DNA from: Clostridia bacterium
GTDB lineage: Bacteria > Bacillota > Clostridia > Acetivibrionales > STF1-152
Direction: 5' to 3'
Assembly (NCBI GenBank): GCA_028280575.1
Contig: JANQLN010000039.1
Location: 1 to 49,653, forward strand
DNA length: 49,653 nucleotides
Both the position numbers and the translations under genes were made by a program. This document shows positions 25,972 to 41,219 of this stretch, piece by piece (within the stretch, counting starts at the first letter, position 1; the number at the start of each line of letters is the position of its first letter). The notes beneath the pieces were generated by a model, which worked only from the letters and a program-made list of their open reading frames with translations, ran no database searches and was not told where the DNA came from.

Positions 25972-27120
25972 ATGAAAAAACAAAAAATTGCATCTTTTAT
26001 AGTATTTTTAGCTTTAAGCATTGCCATGACGGGTATGCTGTTTACAGATACGAAAGAGAAAACAGGAGAAACACCTGTTGAGGTAAGGGCATTGGTACTT
26101 GAGGTTAACAATGATAATGTTTATCAGCAGGGCGTAGCCAGAATCGGGGCACAAAAGCTGAAAATAAAAATACTTAAAGGGCAGTTCAAGGGAAATATAG
26201 TTAATGCGGAAAATGCCTTTCTTGGACAGCTTGAAATTGATAATGCCTATGAAGTAAATGATAAAATAATTGCAGCAATTAACGTAAAGGACGGAGAGCT
26301 TGTCTCTGCCAAAGCTATAGATTTATACAGGCAAGGTGATGAATTTTTGCTTTTCGCTATTTTTGTGGTGCTGTTATTGGTATTTGCCGGCTTGACGGGG
26401 TTAAAAGCCATATTTTCGTTTATTGCAAGCCTCATTGTCCTATGGAAATTATTGATCCCCGGGCTCCTTGACGGCAAAAGCCCGCTGCTTCTTGCTTCAC
26501 TTGTAATTGTTGTGCTTTCCGCAGTAATTATATTTTCTGTGGGAGGATTTACAAAAAAGGCCCTTTCCGCTTTTTTAGGTACAATATGCGGTTTGCTGAT
26601 AACCATAGTCCTGACTGTTATATTCGGTAACAGGCTGGGGCTTCTCGGAATGACGCAGCCTTTTGCCCAGGCATTGTTTTTTTCGGGAAATATGGAATTG
26701 AACATGATGCATATTTTGTACGGCTCAATAATTATAGGTGCATCAGGAGCTGCAATGGACATATCCATGGATGTTTCGGCATCCATGCAGGAAGTCAAGC
26801 TCAAAAAGCAGGATATTTCCTTCAAGGAGCTTATAAAATCGGGATTTAATGTAGGAAAAGCGGTTATAGGAACCATGACAACTACTTTGCTGCTCGCTTA
26901 TACAGGGGGATACCTTACTCTGCTGATGCTTTTTTACAGCAAGGAATCCTCTTTTGTACGCATGATGAATCTTAAAATTGTTGCGGCTGAAGTTATGAGA
27001 ACCCTTATTGGAAGCATAGGCCTTGTAATGGTCGCCCCCATAACAGCTTTTTTTGCTGCCCTGCTTTTGACCGGCAAAAATAATAAAAGCGGCAAAAAGG
27101 ACGGAGACCTGACTTTATAA
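25972..27120 (+). CDS. YibE/F family integral membrane protein
   Basis: Polytopic membrane protein of 382 residues. A first span lies at about 6-22, an exposed domain at 25-120 with EVRALVLEVNNDNVYQQGV, and at least seven further spans from residue 124 on. GSIIIGASGAAMDISMDVSA is the family signature. Transport or regulatory role is unknown. AAGGAGAGG sets ATG 25972. Its stop overlaps that of the minus-strand cadA gene, so transcripts converge. Confidence 0.85.
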   Translation: MKKQKIASFIVFLALSIAMTGMLFTDTKEKTGETPVEVRALVLEVNNDNVYQQGVARIGAQKLKIKILKGQFKGNIVNAENAFLGQLEIDNAYEVNDKIIAAINVKDGELVSAKAIDLYRQGDEFLLFAIFVVLLLVFAGLTGLKAIFSFIASLIVLWKLLIPGLLDGKSPLLLASLVIVVLSAVIIFSVGGFTKKALSAFLGTICGLLITIVLTVIFGNRLGLLGMTQPFAQALFFSGNMELNMMHILYGSIIIGASGAAMDISMDVSASMQEVKLKKQDISFKELIKSGFNVGKAVIGTMTTTLLLAYTGGYLTLLMLFYSKESSFVRMMNLKIVAAEVMRTLIGSIGLVMVAPITAFFAALLLTGKNNKSGKKDGDLTL

Positions 27121-29076
27121 TTTGATTTTCATTGCCCTTATGGAATTCAATACCGCAATGAATGTAACACCTACGTCTGCAAATACCGCTTCCCACATTG
27201 TGGCTTCCCCCATCGCGCCCAGGGCCAGGATTATGCCCTTTATGCCCAGTGAAAAAATAATGTTCTGCCACACAACGGACCTGGTTTTTCCGGCAATCTT
27301 TATTGCGTCGGCCAGCTTTGAAGGCTCGTCCGTCATCAATACTATGTCCGCCGCTTCAATTGCCGCGTCGGAGCCCAGGCCTCCCATTGCAATACCTATA
27401 TCGGCGCGCGCCAGCACAGGAGCATCATTTATCCCGTCTCCTACAAATACCACTTTACCTTTTGAAGCGGATTTATCCATAATTTGCTCAAGCTTCTCCA
27501 CCTTTTGGTCGGGAAGCAATTCCGAGTAAACTCTCCCTATGCCAAGCTCAGAGGCGGTAGTATCGGCAGCAGAGCTGCTGTCACCGGTTAAGATAGCTGT
27601 TTTACGTATTCCTGAATTTTCAAGCTTTTTTATTGCATCACGGGCATCTTCCTTTAATTCGTCGGTTACAATTATGTGTCCCGCATATTGGCCGTCTACA
27701 GCAACATAAATAATGGTTCCCATGGAATTAGCCACGGGAAATGCTATCCCTTCCCCGGACAGCAGCCTTGAATTTCCCACTACTAGCCTATGTTCGTGTA
27801 TATCAGCTTTTATGCCGTAGCCGGGAAGCTCCTCATATCCGGAAATATAGGATTGGTCGGGGATTTTTCCATACTCCTTCAAAATGGATAAAGCTATGGG
27901 GTGATTGGAAAAGCTTTCCGCATAAGCGGCAAATTCTATCACCTGCTCATTTGTATAATTACGTCCGCATTTGATTTCAGCTACTTTCAGCACACCTTTT
28001 GTCAGTGTTCCTGTTTTATCGAATACAACGGTGTCTACTTTATTGAGAGCTTCAAGAAAATTGCCTCCTTTTACCAGTATTCCGTTGCGGGAGGCACCGC
28101 CTATTCCTCCAAAGAAGCTCAAAGGTATTGATACGACCAATGCACAAGGACAGGATACTACAAGAAACACCAGTGCCCTGTGCACCCAGATACTCCAATT
28201 GCCGTCAAAAAGTGAAGGGATTATTGCCATGGCAGCGGCTGAAAATACTACAAAAGGTGTATAATAACGGGCAAATTTGGATATGAAATTTTCAGTTGCG
28301 GACTTTCTGCTGGAAGCATTCTGCACCATATTTAATATCCTGGCAACTGTTGAATCATGGTATTCCCTTATTGCTTTAACCGTTAAAAGGCCATTCATAT
28401 TAATAAAGCCCGATAATATGATATCTCCTCCGGTTATATCACGGGGTGCGGATTCGCCTGTTATTGCGGAGGTATCCGCACTGGAGCTGCCCGATATGAT
28501 CTCTGAGTCCACCGGAACCTTTTCTCCGGGTTTTATAACCAGAATATCATTTACCCTTACATTTTCGGGAGGAATTTTGGCAAATCCGTCCTCCGTCTTT
28601 ATAACAGCATAGCCGGGGCTAAGGTCCATCAATGAGCTTATGGACTTTTTTGACCTGTTAATTGCCATATCTTCAAAAAAGCCGCCTATTCTATAAAAAA
28701 TCATAACTGCCGCCCCTTCGGGAGATTCTCCTATGGCAAACGCGCCTATTGTAGCTATGCCCATGAGGAAATTTTCATCAAATATCTTGCCTTTCAGTAT
28801 GTTTTTGCCTGCCGACAATAAAACCCGGCTTCCCGCTATAATCCAGGAGGAAAGGCTTAAAAGCAAAACTGCCGTTTTAGAAAGGTTTGGTAATGAAATT
28901 GACAGTATGAATAAAACAATGGCAGATGCTATTATGCCAATAGAATAAATACGTTTCTTACCTGTTTCTTCTTTTCTGATATTACAGCTTGTTTTGTTAT
29001 CCTTATTGATTATGCTGATATTTGAGGCACAGCATTCACAGCCTGCTTCTTCAATATTTTTTTCAAAGTTATCCAT
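27115..29076 (-). CDS. cadA: heavy-metal P1B-type ATPase (Zn/Cd/Pb export)
   Basis: Membrane pump that exports soft divalent metals. The 653 residues carry TGESA at 207-211, the CPC metal motif in SCPCALVVS (309-311), the phosphorylated D353 in DKTGTLT, SNHPIA and GDGINDAPVLA. The CPC motif with these surroundings is typical of the Zn/Cd/Pb class. Odd: the N-terminus has no ferredoxin-like HMA domain; it has only a short cysteine group (GCECC at 12-16, C31). The gene follows the ArsR-type regulator gene by 14 nt in the same direction. Confidence 0.93.
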   Translation of the reverse strand: MDNFEKNIEEAGCECCASNISIINKDNKTSCNIRKEETGKKRIYSIGIIASAIVLFILSISLPNLSKTAVLLLSLSSWIIAGSRVLLSAGKNILKGKIFDENFLMGIATIGAFAIGESPEGAAVMIFYRIGGFFEDMAINRSKKSISSLMDLSPGYAVIKTEDGFAKIPPENVRVNDILVIKPGEKVPVDSEIISGSSSADTSAITGESAPRDITGGDIILSGFINMNGLLTVKAIREYHDSTVARILNMVQNASSRKSATENFISKFARYYTPFVVFSAAAMAIIPSLFDGNWSIWVHRALVFLVVSCPCALVVSIPLSFFGGIGGASRNGILVKGGNFLEALNKVDTVVFDKTGTLTKGVLKVAEIKCGRNYTNEQVIEFAAYAESFSNHPIALSILKEYGKIPDQSYISGYEELPGYGIKADIHEHRLVVGNSRLLSGEGIAFPVANSMGTIIYVAVDGQYAGHIIVTDELKEDARDAIKKLENSGIRKTAILTGDSSSAADTTASELGIGRVYSELLPDQKVEKLEQIMDKSASKGKVVFVGDGINDAPVLARADIGIAMGGLGSDAAIEAADIVLMTDEPSKLADAIKIAGKTRSVVWQNIIFSLGIKGIILALGAMGEATMWEAVFADVGVTFIAVLNSIRAMKIKL

Positions 29077-29090
29077 AAAAAACCCCTTTT

Positions 29091-29435
29091 TTACTCATTA
29101 ATATGCATAAGACCCTGCTTGAAAATTAATTCCACATGCTCGTCATCAAGGGAGTAAAATGTGGATTTTCCATTTTTCCTGTATTTTACAAGCCTTGCCT
29201 GCTTCAATACCCGAAGCTGGTGAGAAATGGCAGATTGTGTCATGCCCAGCAATAGGGCAATGTCGCATACACACATTTCAAAATCGGATATTGCGTATAA
29301 TATTTTCACCCTTGTAGAATCCCCAAACACCTTGAACAAATCTGCAAGCTCATATAGCTTGCTTTCTTCAGGCATTAGCTTTCGCGCCTTTTCAACAGCT
29401 TCCTCATGTATAATATTACAATCACAGCTACTCAA
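29091..29435 (-). CDS. cadC: ArsR/SmtB-family metal-sensing repressor
   Basis: Dimeric winged-helix repressor of about 114 residues that releases DNA on metal binding. The alpha3 metal site EMCVCD (C55, C57) and an N-terminal CDC pair (C4, C6) match the CadC-type sensors for Cd/Pb/Zn. The recognition helix is in LLLGMTQSAISHQLRVL. TTG 29435 is 8 nt after AAGGTGG; a GTG at 29447 would overlap that ribosome site. Cotranscribed with cadA, with an operator at 29467-29486. Confidence 0.9.
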   Translation of the reverse strand: MSSCDCNIIHEEAVEKARKLMPEESKLYELADLFKVFGDSTRVKILYAISDFEMCVCDIALLLGMTQSAISHQLRVLKQARLVKYRKNGKSTFYSLDDEHVELIFKQGLMHINE

Positions 29436-29466
29436 TTGATTAACCACCTTTCACAAATGAATGAAC

Positions 29467-29486
29467 ATATGAACAAATATTCATAT
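29467..29486 (-). promoter_or_regulatory. ArsR/SmtB operator
   Basis: ATATGAACAAATATTCATAT: arms ATATGAA and TTCATAT around 6 nt, the known CadC/SmtB half-site pattern. It lies at the start point of the cadC promoter. Confidence 0.75.
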
Positions 29487-29491
29487 ATAAT

Positions 29492-29520
29492 ATAATATGC
29501 TCATAACATTAATTTGTCAA
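29492..29520 (-). promoter_or_regulatory. cadC-cadA promoter
   Basis: On the minus strand, TTGACA (29520-29515), 17-nt spacer, TATTAT (29497-29492). The operator sits just downstream. Confidence 0.7.
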
Positions 29521-29594: not shown

Positions 29595-29623
29595 TTGATT
29601 TTTCCTCTCTATGTGAGTATACT
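29595..29623 (+). promoter_or_regulatory. promoter of the leader-ABC exporter unit
   Basis: TTGATT (29595-29600), 17-nt spacer, TATACT (29618-29623), about 40 nt before the leader ORF. Confidence 0.55.
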
Positions 29624-29666
29624 GTATCTACTGGTGTTTAAATTTTTATGATAAGGAGGCCTCATG

Positions 29667-29762
29667 ATGATAAAGAATTTAATCTTGTTAATCGGCAAGA
29701 CAAAGAACCCATTAAATCGTAATAGTATATTAGCGGCCTCTGCTTTTCGTAGCATAGCATAG
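29667..29762 (+). CDS. 31-residue leader peptide, candidate attenuator
   Basis: A small ORF with an ideal ribosome site AAGGAGG (29653-29659), 7 nt before ATG 29667; ATG 29664 is also possible. The peptide is basic and hydrophobic, beginning MIKNLILLIGKTKN and ending RSIA. It lies between a promoter and a perfect intrinsic terminator, upstream of a BmrC/BmrD-like exporter pair. Codons 24-27 (29736-29747) can pair with the 5' arm of the terminator. This is the layout of ribosome-mediated attenuation known for bmrB-bmrC-bmrD in B. subtilis, though the peptide is shorter. Expression is inferred. Confidence 0.6.
   Translation: MIKNLILLIGKTKNPLNRNSILAASAFRSIA
29736..29747 (+). promoter_or_regulatory. 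candidate anti-terminator strand
   Basis: GCCTCTGCTTTT can pair with the terminator 5' arm AAAAGCCACAGGC: 4 bp, one mismatch, 2 bp, one bulged base, 5 bp. It mimics the terminator 3' arm GCCTGTGGCTTTT. A ribosome finishing the leader would cover it; a ribosome stalled earlier would leave it free. Confidence 0.5.
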
Positions 29763-29772
29763 ATTATGTTAT

Positions 29773-29809
29773 AAAAAGCCACAGGCTGTTGGAAGCCTGT
29801 GGCTTTTTT
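29773..29809 (+). terminator. strong intrinsic terminator in the leader of the ABC exporter operon
   Basis: Perfect 15-bp stem AAAAAGCCACAGGCT / AGCCTGTGGCTTTTT, loop GTTGGA, six T. It starts 10 nt after the leader stop and ends 114 nt before the first exporter gene. The 114 nt to the exporter hold no other promoter that I can defend. Confidence 0.9.
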
Positions 29810-29923
29810 GCATCTTTTATTTCTTTCAAAAAACTAAAGCAATAAAAGTCAGGGCGCAGCATACTTGTGGGATATTTATGCCTTTGGCAAAGAGAAACTT
29901 AAAGCCCATGGGAGGGACAAATA

Positions 29924-31714
29924 ATGAATTCAAAATTTAAACTTTCAATGCAGTTAATGAAAGGGAATTGGCTGCTGTATGCCGGCGCGGTAGTTAGCGT
30001 AATGGCTGCCGGTATTTTCGCAATGGTTTGCCCCCTGGTAATCAGGGCAACTATTGATTCGGTTATTGGGAATAAAGAGCTGGATGTACCGGGATGGCTC
30101 GGGTCAATAATTGAAAGCTGGGGAGGGACGGGTGTACTGGCAAAAAATCTTTGGATATGCTCTTTAGCCTTGCTGGCTCTAACATTGCTCCAGGGTATAT
30201 TTTCATTTGCAAGGGGTAAATGGGCCGCACAGGCATCTGAAGAAATTTCCAGGCGTCTCCGTGACAAGTTGTATGAGAAGTTTCAAAAGCTTCCATATGA
30301 TTACCATGTAAAAGCAAAAACAGGTGATTTGATCCAGAGGTCAACATCTGATGTTGAAACCATAAGGCGTTTCCTTTCATTTCAGCTTGTAGAGGTGGGA
30401 AACACTGTTTTTATGGTGATAGTGGTGTTTATTATAATGATGTCACTGAATATTAAAATGGCACTGCTTTCGGTAGTAGTATTGCCCGTATTGTTTACTT
30501 TTTCAATAGTGTTTTTTAAAAAGATAAAAGACCAGTTCAAGCTTTGTGAAGAATCTGAGGGTAAGCTGTCAACAGTGCTCCAGGAAAACCTGACGGGTAT
30601 AAGGGTTGTAAAGGCGTTTGGAAGAGAAGCCTTTGAATATGAAAAGTTTGACAAAAAAAATGACGAATATACTGAAAATGTAAGGGGTATTATCAATTAT
30701 TTTGCACTTTATTGGTCAAGTTCCGACCTTATGTCTCTTTCCCAGACAGGTATTGTTACCGTAGCCGGTATTTACGCAACTATTTCAGGGCAAATCACCC
30801 TGGGTACATTTTTTGTATTTCTGGCTTACGTTGGAATGCTGCTGTGGCCTGTAAGACAGCTTGGAAGAATACTGACCGATATGGGTAAAATGGTGGTTGC
30901 CATGGACAGGATAAATGAAATCCTGGAGAAAGAACAGGAAAATATGAATGAAAAGGGAAAAAGACCCATAATAAAAGGAAATATCGAGTTCCATAAGGTA
31001 TGTTTTGGTTATGAGGGCGATGAAAATGTTATAAAGGATGTTTCCTTTAAAGTTAAAAGCGGTCAGACAGTTGCCATACTGGGGCCCACCGGTTCAGGCA
31101 AATCTACACTCATGCACCTTTTGCAAAGATTGTATGATTACAGGAAAGGCTCAATAATTGTTGATGGGGTGGAGCTTAAAGAAATAGAAAAAAACTGGCT
31201 GAGAAAGCATATCGGCATTGTACTTCAGGAACCATTCCTGTTTTCCAGGACCATCAAGGAAAATATCTGCCTTGCCAAGCTTGATGTCAGGGAGGAAGAA
31301 ATGTTTGAAGCTGCAAGGACCGCAGCCGTGCATGATGTTGTGAATGAGTTTGACAAAGGCTATGAGACAATTGTAGGTGAGAGGGGAGTTACCCTGTCCG
31401 GAGGACAGAAGCAAAGAGTCGCAATGGCAAGAAGCTTGATCAGGAGCTGCCCCATAGTGATATTTGATGATTCTCTGAGTGCGGTGGATACGGAAACGGA
31501 CGCATTAATAAGAAAGGCAATCAGGGAAAGCAATAAGAAGGTTACCACATTTATTATATCTCACAGGATAACTACCCTTTCACAGGCTGACGCGGTAGTT
31601 GTGCTAAAGGATGGAATGATAGAGCAATATGGCAGCCATAGTGAGCTTATAAGCCAGGAGGGCTTGTATAAAAAGCTGTGGAACCTGGCAAAGGGCAGTG
31701 AAAAAGCTGTGTAA
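29924..31714 (+). CDS. heterodimeric ABC exporter, degenerate-site half (BmrC/YheI-like)
   Basis: Half-transporter of 596 residues: six-span membrane domain (about 1-320) and a nucleotide-binding domain. Walker A GPTGSGKST is at 387-395 and the signature LSGGQKQR at 491-498. The catalytic base after Walker B is Asp (FDDSLSAVD, D516) rather than Glu, the hallmark of the degenerate site in heterodimeric multidrug exporters. GGGAGG lies about 9 nt before ATG 29924. Partner gene follows at 80 nt. Substrate unknown; drugs or toxic peptides are likely from family. Confidence 0.92.
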   Translation: MNSKFKLSMQLMKGNWLLYAGAVVSVMAAGIFAMVCPLVIRATIDSVIGNKELDVPGWLGSIIESWGGTGVLAKNLWICSLALLALTLLQGIFSFARGKWAAQASEEISRRLRDKLYEKFQKLPYDYHVKAKTGDLIQRSTSDVETIRRFLSFQLVEVGNTVFMVIVVFIIMMSLNIKMALLSVVVLPVLFTFSIVFFKKIKDQFKLCEESEGKLSTVLQENLTGIRVVKAFGREAFEYEKFDKKNDEYTENVRGIINYFALYWSSSDLMSLSQTGIVTVAGIYATISGQITLGTFFVFLAYVGMLLWPVRQLGRILTDMGKMVVAMDRINEILEKEQENMNEKGKRPIIKGNIEFHKVCFGYEGDENVIKDVSFKVKSGQTVAILGPTGSGKSTLMHLLQRLYDYRKGSIIVDGVELKEIEKNWLRKHIGIVLQEPFLFSRTIKENICLAKLDVREEEMFEAARTAAVHDVVNEFDKGYETIVGERGVTLSGGQKQRVAMARSLIRSCPIVIFDDSLSAVDTETDALIRKAIRESNKKVTTFIISHRITTLSQADAVVVLKDGMIEQYGSHSELISQEGLYKKLWNLAKGSEKAV

Positions 31715-31772: not shown

Positions 31773-31794
31773 ATGACCGGGGAGGTTGATTAAA

Positions 31795-33639
31795 ATGCAG
31801 CATTTGGAAGAACAGGAATATACAAAGCAGTTTGATTTTGAATTGTGGAAAAACCTGTTCAGGTATACAAAACCTTATAAAAAATATTTAATAAGATTGA
31901 TTTTTATCATGGTTGGAGTGGCTGGAATAGATGCCATATTTCCTCTTATGGGCAAGTTTGCGGTGGATAATTTTATTGTGGCCGGAGACATGAGCAAAAT
32001 GGGGATTTACATAGCAGTTTTCAGTATTCTGGTAGTAGTGCAGGCTTTTAACGTATGGATGCTTATAACAACAGCCGGAAAGATAGAAGTAGGAGTATGC
32101 TACGATATAAGGAAAAATGCGTTTAGGCGTATTCAGGAATTATCTCTTTCATATTTTGACCGCACACCTGTGGGATGGATGATGGCACGTATGACATCCG
32201 ACACGCAAAGGCTCGGGCAGATAATAGCATGGGGCTCGGTGGATTCCATATGGGGTATAGCTATGATGGTAATTATGATGAGTATAATGCTTATACTAAA
32301 TTGGAAGCTTGCTTTAACGGCATTAGTTGTAATGCCCGCATTAATAGTTACCGGCATATATTTTCAAAAGCGTATATTAAAAGCATTCAGGGATATTAGA
32401 AAAACAAACTCAAAAATTACGGCATCCTTTAATGAGGGAATAACAGGTGCAAGAACTTCAAAGACTCTTGTGAGGGAAGGACGGAATATAATAGAGTTTA
32501 ATGAGATAACGGACAAAATGTACCATAAATCCGTAAAAGCCGCTATTTTTTCTTCCCTTTATATGCCCATAGTCCTTTTGCTGGGAAGCATAGGCACAGG
32601 ATTGGTTTTGTGGAAAGGCGGAAATAATGTTATTAACGGTGTGATGGGATATGGAACATTAGTAGCTTTTATAAATTATGTATTAAGGTTTTTTGAACCT
32701 GTCAGGGAGCTTGCCAGGATTTTTGCCGACCTGCAGTATGCCCAGGCATCGGGTGAACGTATATTGTCCCTTATTGATAAGGAGCCCGACATAAAGGATA
32801 AAAAAGAGATCATACAAAAGTTCGGCGACTTTTTTAATCCTGTAAAAAAGGATTGGCCCGGAGTAGAAGGAGATATTTTATTTGAGAATGTTTCATTTAG
32901 ATATAAAAAGGGAGAAGAAGTTCTCAAAAATTTTAACCTGCATGTAAAAAAAGGCCAGAACATTGCACTTGTGGGAGCTACCGGCTCCGGAAAAAGCACT
33001 ATTGTGAACCTGGTGTGCAGATTTTATGAACCCGTTGAAGGCAGGATTCTGATTGACGGTACGGACTACAGGGAAAGGTCACAGCTTTGGCTCCATTCGA
33101 ATCTTGGATATGTCCTGCAAACTCCCCACCTTTTCAGCGGTACAATTATGGAAAATATTAAATATGGCAGGCTGGATGCTGGCGACGAAGATGTTATCAA
33201 AGCGTCGAAGCTTGTCAATGCCCATGATTTCATTGTTAAGCTTGATAAGGCTTACGAGGCTGAAGTGGGTGAGGGAGGGGCAAGGCTTTCAATGGGACAA
33301 AAACAGCTGGTTTCTTTTGCACGGGCGATTATTGCCGACCCGGCAATATTTGTTCTGGACGAAGCTACATCCTCCATAGATTCCGAAACCGAACAGGTTA
33401 TACAATCAGCAGTTGAAAAGGTATTGGAAGGGAGAACAAGCTTTATAATTGCCCATAGGCTTTCTACCATAAGGAACGCGGACAGGATTTTGGTAATTGA
33501 CAAGGGAACAGTAATAGAGGAAGGAACCCACCAAGAGCTTTTAAAGCTAAGAGGCCGCTACTATAATCTTTATAATAATCAGTTCCTGGATGAACAGGAG
33601 ATTAAGACAATCAATATGGATACGGAATTGAGCCTGTAA
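31795..33639 (+). CDS. heterodimeric ABC exporter, partner half (BmrD/YheH-like)
   Basis: Half-transporter of 614 residues with six membrane spans and an ATPase domain. Walker A GATGSGKST is at 394-402. Walker B ends in canonical DEATSSID with catalytic E523. Its signature is LSMGQ (498-502), not LSGGQ. Together with D516 in the partner this builds one good and one degenerate ATP site, as expected for a heterodimer. GGGGAGG places the start at ATG 31795; TTG 31786 touches the ribosome site. Confidence 0.92.
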   Translation: MQHLEEQEYTKQFDFELWKNLFRYTKPYKKYLIRLIFIMVGVAGIDAIFPLMGKFAVDNFIVAGDMSKMGIYIAVFSILVVVQAFNVWMLITTAGKIEVGVCYDIRKNAFRRIQELSLSYFDRTPVGWMMARMTSDTQRLGQIIAWGSVDSIWGIAMMVIMMSIMLILNWKLALTALVVMPALIVTGIYFQKRILKAFRDIRKTNSKITASFNEGITGARTSKTLVREGRNIIEFNEITDKMYHKSVKAAIFSSLYMPIVLLLGSIGTGLVLWKGGNNVINGVMGYGTLVAFINYVLRFFEPVRELARIFADLQYAQASGERILSLIDKEPDIKDKKEIIQKFGDFFNPVKKDWPGVEGDILFENVSFRYKKGEEVLKNFNLHVKKGQNIALVGATGSGKSTIVNLVCRFYEPVEGRILIDGTDYRERSQLWLHSNLGYVLQTPHLFSGTIMENIKYGRLDAGDEDVIKASKLVNAHDFIVKLDKAYEAEVGEGGARLSMGQKQLVSFARAIIADPAIFVLDEATSSIDSETEQVIQSAVEKVLEGRTSFIIAHRLSTIRNADRILVIDKGTVIEEGTHQELLKLRGRYYNLYNNQFLDEQEIKTINMDTELSL

Positions 33640-40936: not shown

Positions 40937-41200
40937 AAAAAACCCCGTCTCGTATATGAGACGGGGGTTAATCCGCGGTACCACTCAATTTGGTTTCCTT
41001 CCTTAAAGAAACCCGCTTTTTTAAACGGCAATCACCATCTATCCTGTTAACGGTGGAATTCCGGCTTATCCTAGAAGTGCCGGGGGGCACTAATTCAGAC
41101 AGCAACTCCTGGGTGAGTTCAAATTATGAAAATTATCGGATTGCACCAGCCTCCGACTCTCTTATAAATTTCCAGTGGTTTTACTATTCCCAATCACAGC
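40937..41200 (-). promoter_or_regulatory. T-box riboswitch, leucine
   Basis: The leader contains the T-box sequence TGGTACCGCGG (40983-40973), the terminator CCCCGTCTC/GAGACGGGG with T-run (40966-40935), and a long stem I. In stem I, GAACTCACC places the specifier codon CTC (Leu) at 41117-41115, flanked as usual by GAA and A. Uncharged tRNA-Leu(GAG) would favour the anti-terminator and switch leuA on. An AGAGAGTCGG segment and GGAAT/ATTCC arms fit the rest of the fold. Confidence 0.92.
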
Positions 41201-41219
41201 TTTTATATTATTATATTAA

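Follow-up and report, generated by a model that had tools for sequence, protein, structure and literature searches.

What does a short ORF followed by an intrinsic terminator do in front of a multidrug-type ABC exporter? The question is raised by a 49,653-nt stretch of DNA from a Clostridia bacterium (contig JANQLN010000039.1; hereafter, the window), in which a leader of this kind occupies positions 29595-29809. The leader is quite probably a ribosome-controlled transcription attenuator, in which ribosomes arrested at the start of the leader ORF would give read-through into the exporter genes. An attenuator had been proposed here by the initial annotation, a reading of the DNA alone, and the proposal is now supported by conservation and covariation among relatives.

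The layout of the leader is given in Table 1. The initial annotation described a 31-codon ORF, an ideal ribosome site, an anti-terminator strand (29736-29747) and a perfect terminator, and all of these elements lie where it placed them. AGGAGG (29654-29659) is separated by a 7-nt spacer from the ATG at 29667; there is a second in-frame ATG at 29664, from which the ORF would have 32 codons. The terminator begins 10 nt past the leader stop codon, has 15/15 pairs, a T tail and a stability of -25.3 kcal/mol, and ends 115 nt before the start of the exporter gene. Hence, the general hallmark of an attenuator, a translatable leader ORF with a ribosome site before an intrinsic terminator, is present. 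The promoter described in the initial annotation holds up in part. The site is there, its spacing fits that of relatives (31 nt from the -10 to GGAGG, the upper limit of the 19-31 nt range of most of them), and its TTGATT is also present in several relatives. On its own it is weak, because it is a 9/12 match and such sites are not enriched in the region (25 seen versus 21.7 expected in shuffles). The minimum-energy fold of the leader has a z score of -3.5, and none of 200 shuffles was as stable. The covariance models of Rfam 15, at gathering score, assign no family to the window leader; permissive E-values gave only chance-level matches, and a search of 11 relatives against Rfam at E up to 1 gave none that was credible. 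The sole Rfam match in the window is a T-box leader on the minus strand (40954-41206, 129 bits).

Table 1. Coordinates of the leader elements and the exporter genes in the window
Feature	Position	Strand	Remarks
Promoter-like site TTGATT-17-TATACT	29595-29623	+	9/12 match
Strand 1: leader ribosome site AAGGAGGCCTC, captured by strand 2	29653-29663	+	Pairs with 29732-29742
Leader ORF, 31 codons, MIKNLILLIGKTKNPLNRNSILAASAFRSIA	29667-29762	+	
Strand 2: anti-ribosome-site and antiterminator strand TAGCGGCCTCTGCTTTTCGTAG	29731-29752	+	Pairs with strand 1 and strand 3
Strand 3: 5' arm of the terminator, alternative partner of strand 2	29770-29790	+	
Intrinsic terminator, 15 bp, T tail from 29803	29773-29808	+	GCC(A)YAGG..CCTRTGGC core common to relatives
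ABC half-exporter, regulated gene; Walker B FDDS (degenerate site)	29924-31714	+	Orthologues with the same leader
Partner ABC half-exporter; signature LSMGQ	31786-33639	+	Related to TmrA and TM0288 in PDB

Which genes does the leader precede? An FDDS Walker B motif in one half and an LSMGQ signature in the other are the usual mark of a heterodimeric exporter with one degenerate site. Both motifs can be read directly in the two downstream proteins, which bears out the heterodimeric exporter of the initial annotation. In a search of PDB (top sequences, E up to 1e-100), BmrC/D did not stand out. On the other side of the leader lies a divergent ArsR/SmtB-type regulator (29091-29520) and, beyond it on the minus strand, a Cd/Zn-type P-type ATPase (27115-29076). 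A palindrome, ATATGAACAAATATTCATAT, near 29469-29488, just downstream of the promoter-like site of the regulator, resembles a 12-2-12 ArsR-family operator.

The initial annotation had proposed a comparison with related exporters as a check, and that comparison found the leader plan and its pairing kept and covarying. A contig-level search for related loci returned distant exporters only, and a plasmid search a single distant relative; the relatives came from a search of genomes of the class, two families and the phylum, in which the DNA upstream of exporter orthologues (~46-59% identical) was read. A leader was defined as GGRGG, a start codon and an ORF of 12-55 codons. By this rule, a leader ORF is present in 48 of the 59 regions upstream of orthologues (the window counts among them), in Clostridia and related classes, and an automatic rule found the terminator as well in 43 of the 59. 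No leader was detected in the other 11, two of which are contig ends. Upstream regions sampled from the host genome served as controls (255 regions in 393 kb): the ORF together with a terminator occurred in none of them, and the ORF alone in four. Nearly all relatives with a leader have an ORF of 21-43 codons, and the typical order is AAAGGAGGTCGTGAAGATG ... CACGACCT ... stop ... GCCATAGGT .. ACCTATGGC TTTT. The comparison strongly supports the view that the layout is a genuine regulatory element. Many relatives (L044, L065-L069, L020, L036, L047, L048 and others) have a second, tandem terminator before the exporter, with nearly the same GCCATAGGT/ACCTATGGC stem, where the window has one; this could be a further gate using the same strand 2. 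Three exporter leaders (L024, L026 and L039) have a quite different ribosome region (GGAGGAACCTGGAG, GGAGGAACGGGCC), yet carry a complementary site near the ORF end with which few foreign ribosome regions pair as well. These leaders may be far-diverged versions of the plan or a second origin of it.

The strands of the leader can form three helices. The helix between strands 1 and 2 (1:2) exceeds dinucleotide shuffles at p<0.05 in 37 of 48 leaders and at p<0.01 in 28; in the window, its stability (-14.0 kcal/mol; 29653-29663 with 29732-29742) is modest against shuffles (p 0.03). Compensatory variants of this helix occur in L056 (GGCTGCGA/TCGCAGCC), L081 (GGTTGCGA/TCGCAACC), and L070 and L075 (GGCCATG/TATGGCC), with more in L126, L129 and L135. 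When 25 leaders are aligned with MAFFT by sequence only, every cell of helix 1:2 is paired, and sliding the structure by 1-3 columns reduces this to 27-46%. For helix 2:3, 87.4% of cells are paired, versus 19-58% in the slid versions. The window helix 2:3 has -17.0 kcal/mol (p 0.013) and overlaps the 1:2 site by 11 nt. The two sites, located independently, overlap in 39 of 43 leaders, with 13.2 expected. Because strand 2 is shared by 1:2 and 2:3, and strand 3 by 2:3 and 3:4, the three helices are successively exclusive, and sequence comparison strongly supports their reading as an anti-antiterminator, an antiterminator and a terminator. The pairing of GGAGGCC (29655-29661) with GGCCTCT (29735-29741) had been listed in the initial annotation as a third possible fold. 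It does sit in the minimum-energy fold, but it is no extra: it is the conserved, covarying helix at the core of the switch.

How would such a switch work? RNA polymerase would begin the leader at the promoter near 29600-29623. In the normal state, a ribosome would translate the 31-codon ORF and cover strand 2 near the ORF end; with no ribosome, strand 1 would pair with strand 2. Whether covered or paired with strand 1, strand 2 could not reach strand 3, so the terminator (3:4) would form and the exporter would be off. If a ribosome is halted at the leader start or shortly beyond it, as a ribosome-targeting antibiotic might cause, strand 1 would be masked and strand 2 left bare. Free strand 2 would then pair with the 5' arm of the terminator, no terminator would form, and the exporter pair would be transcribed. 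Folding with and without a ribosome footprint, also suggested at the outset, fits this scheme in part. With a ribosome at the leader start, 2:3 dominates for 3' ends at 29790-29798; with a ribosome near codon 24, 2:3 is lost; and the full transcript without a ribosome folds into 1:2 plus the terminator. The equilibrium outcomes do not fit: a bare transcript ending at 29790-29798 also favors 2:3, and in full-length RNA the terminator is preferred even if a ribosome occupies the start. The outcome of the switch thus depends on folding order. The comparison of sequences supports the strands and the three helices, which are conserved and mutually exclusive, and an ORF that is open but not conserved as a peptide; from these we infer the folding order, an antibiotic as the inducer, and export of that antibiotic.

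The same leader is not restricted to this exporter and its orthologues. A covariance model (R1) was built from 25 clostridial leaders with the window excluded; L057-L060, which have GGAGG/CCTCC in another register, were left out, as was L018. On the window, with all positions scored, 29651-29810 ranks first (53.9 bits, E 6e-9), and the next unrelated match in the 49.6 kb has 15.9 bits. A minus-strand match at 29886-29771 (30 bits) reflects only the palindromic terminator and was rejected. Since the model made without the window scores it at 53.9 bits, the window leader belongs to the class, as a member with a shorter 1:2 helix (GGAGGCC with GGCCTCT) and a divergent sequence. Model matches occur in 33 of 391 genomes of the class and 12 of 398 of the phylum; strict filters were used, so these counts are probably lower bounds, and the few matches without a recognizable uORF (L109, L111, L121 and L122) were set aside.

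Besides exporters like that of the window, the leader precedes EamA and MFS transporters, GNAT acetyltransferases, other ABC genes, SLFN_AlbA_2 proteins and a GyrI-like protein. Helix 1:2 is significant at p<0.05 in 18 of 26 additional leaders, with L098, which lacks flanking bases, counted as a non-match; these leaders were found with a model that itself contains helix 1:2. In five cases (L097, L102, L104, L106 and L117), the leader lies 380-620 nt ahead of the SLFN_AlbA_2-domain protein and has a uORF of 36-42 codons and a GTCACGGG-type terminator. In the genome of the window itself, a second model match is a terminator of the same type that stands directly before a GNAT gene (L134, C62:19639-19779); no GGAGG uORF was recognized there, and it was not counted. 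GNAT orthologues of this gene carry the full leader in L107, L126, L127 and L135, and L134 may be a decayed copy. Many of the downstream genes have plausible resistance functions, which favors, and may point to, an antibiotic as the signal. A broader claim is plausible and, on balance, mildly favored: the leader is a member of an undescribed RNA class, widely distributed in Clostridia and related classes, in which a long uORF with a free peptide serves only to meter ribosome arrest near its start, strand 1 is the ribosome site, the 3' end of the uORF is both anti-ribosome-site and antiterminator, and a single cassette lies upstream of ABC exporters, EamA and MFS transporters, GNAT acetyltransferases and further genes.

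What, then, does the leader sense? From the start codon to strand 2, frame 0 is open in 44 of 44 leaders and each of the other two frames in 4 of 44, while the rule for selecting leaders itself requires only 12 open codons. Among close relatives, the three codon positions of the ORF have similar numbers of substitutions (49/43/57), and 91 codon changes are non-synonymous versus 14 synonymous. With the frame kept open and the positions changing evenly, translation of the leader seems to be needed and the peptide seems not to be under selection. The combination suggests that what is sensed is the arrest of a ribosome at the leader start or shortly beyond it, by blocked initiation or in early elongation. 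Could a drug-dependent arrest peptide do the same, with a specific nascent peptide and the drug stalling the ribosome at a defined codon and the stall selecting the fold, as in ermC- or MsrD-type leaders? Stalling of the macrolide and phenicol types does depend on peptide context, and an ARP-like motif ends the leader peptides of many relatives. That stretch, however, is the anti-ribosome-site strand, read in the ARP-like frame in 28 leaders and in the two remaining frames in 7 and 4; together with the substitution pattern, this makes an arrest peptide quite unlikely.

Two further readings were considered. The leader could be a general sensor of protein synthesis, with starvation, (p)ppGpp or missing initiation as the signal in place of a drug and the exporter as one of several stress genes. 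Such a sensor would suit a leader peptide without a sensed residue, a readout of initiation at one site, and the non-transporters among the downstream genes (SLFN_AlbA_2, GyrI-like, GNAT). We regard it as unlikely, because without initiation 1:2 should form, which in the full-length fold favors termination, and because most downstream genes are transporters or modifying enzymes. Alternatively, a plain terminator could stand beside a spurious ORF, with the exporter under its own promoter or under the neighboring ArsR-type regulator. The weakness of the leader promoter-like match and the nearby regulator gene with its operator-like palindrome would agree with this, but the plan is conserved and covarying and absent from the control regions, a scan of the plus strand from 29809 to 29924 found no sigma-70-like promoter between terminator and gene, and the palindrome overlies the divergent promoter, ~100 nt from that of the leader. 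This is the least probable of the three alternatives, and a very unlikely one.

What are the implications of the proposed control of the exporter by start-arrested ribosomes? Inducible intrinsic resistance is poorly charted in uncultured Clostridia, and the sequence signature and covariance model could be used to locate drug-inducible transporters and modifying enzymes there. If the cassette class is real, it predicts a shared set of genes that answer translation inhibitors. In addition, variation seems to be tolerated in the leader peptide but not in the RNA strands, so the need for an arrest peptide in attenuators becomes directly testable.

How does the leader compare with known systems? 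Like trp-type attenuators, it has alternative 1:2, 2:3 and 3:4 pairing that reads out the position of a ribosome. It differs in having no run of a sensed amino acid and in using the leader ribosome site as strand 1, which would make it a sensor of initiation or early elongation. A survey of premature terminators describes many leaders of ABC genes, including one upstream of a multidrug exporter in lactobacilli (PMC2965389). The initial annotation drew its parallel with bmrB-bmrC-bmrD, which is induced by ribosome-targeting drugs (PMC4191407). The shared plan stands: a leader ORF, a terminator, an antiterminator and a predicted anti-antiterminator ahead of a heterodimeric multidrug ABC exporter. 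The bmrB ORF, however, has ~54 codons, with the terminator in the coding region and an anti-antiterminator without clear function (PMC4191407), whereas the window terminator (29773-29808) follows the stop codon (29762) and the first strand is the ribosome site itself. Mechanistically, the closest systems are the ABC-F leaders of VmlR in Bacillus subtilis (PMC9226507) and CplR in Clostridioides difficile (PMC10201436), CplR being also clostridial, in which an anti-antiterminator sequesters the uORF ribosome site ahead of an intrinsic terminator. Their topology, demonstrated by experiment, is therefore already known; in the literature searched, outside which lie many subscription papers and supplements, no description of a clostridial long-uORF class was found, and the class appears new to that literature and to Rfam. 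In the window, too, the uORF ribosome site pairs with the antiterminator strand, and sequence comparison and folding place antiterminator and terminator in mutual exclusion. In VmlR and CplR, a drug-stalled ribosome frees the antiterminator strand, and the same is proposed here. The differences lie in the gene controlled, an ABC exporter instead of an ABC-F protein; in the exporter's own ribosome site, which is not seen to be captured by the terminator, the exporter start being 115 nt downstream; and in the uORF, which has 3 codons in VmlR and CplR and 21-43 in the clostridial class (31 in the window). Unlike in VmlR and CplR, the final portion of the uORF contains strand 2, and a translating ribosome would therefore block this strand as well.
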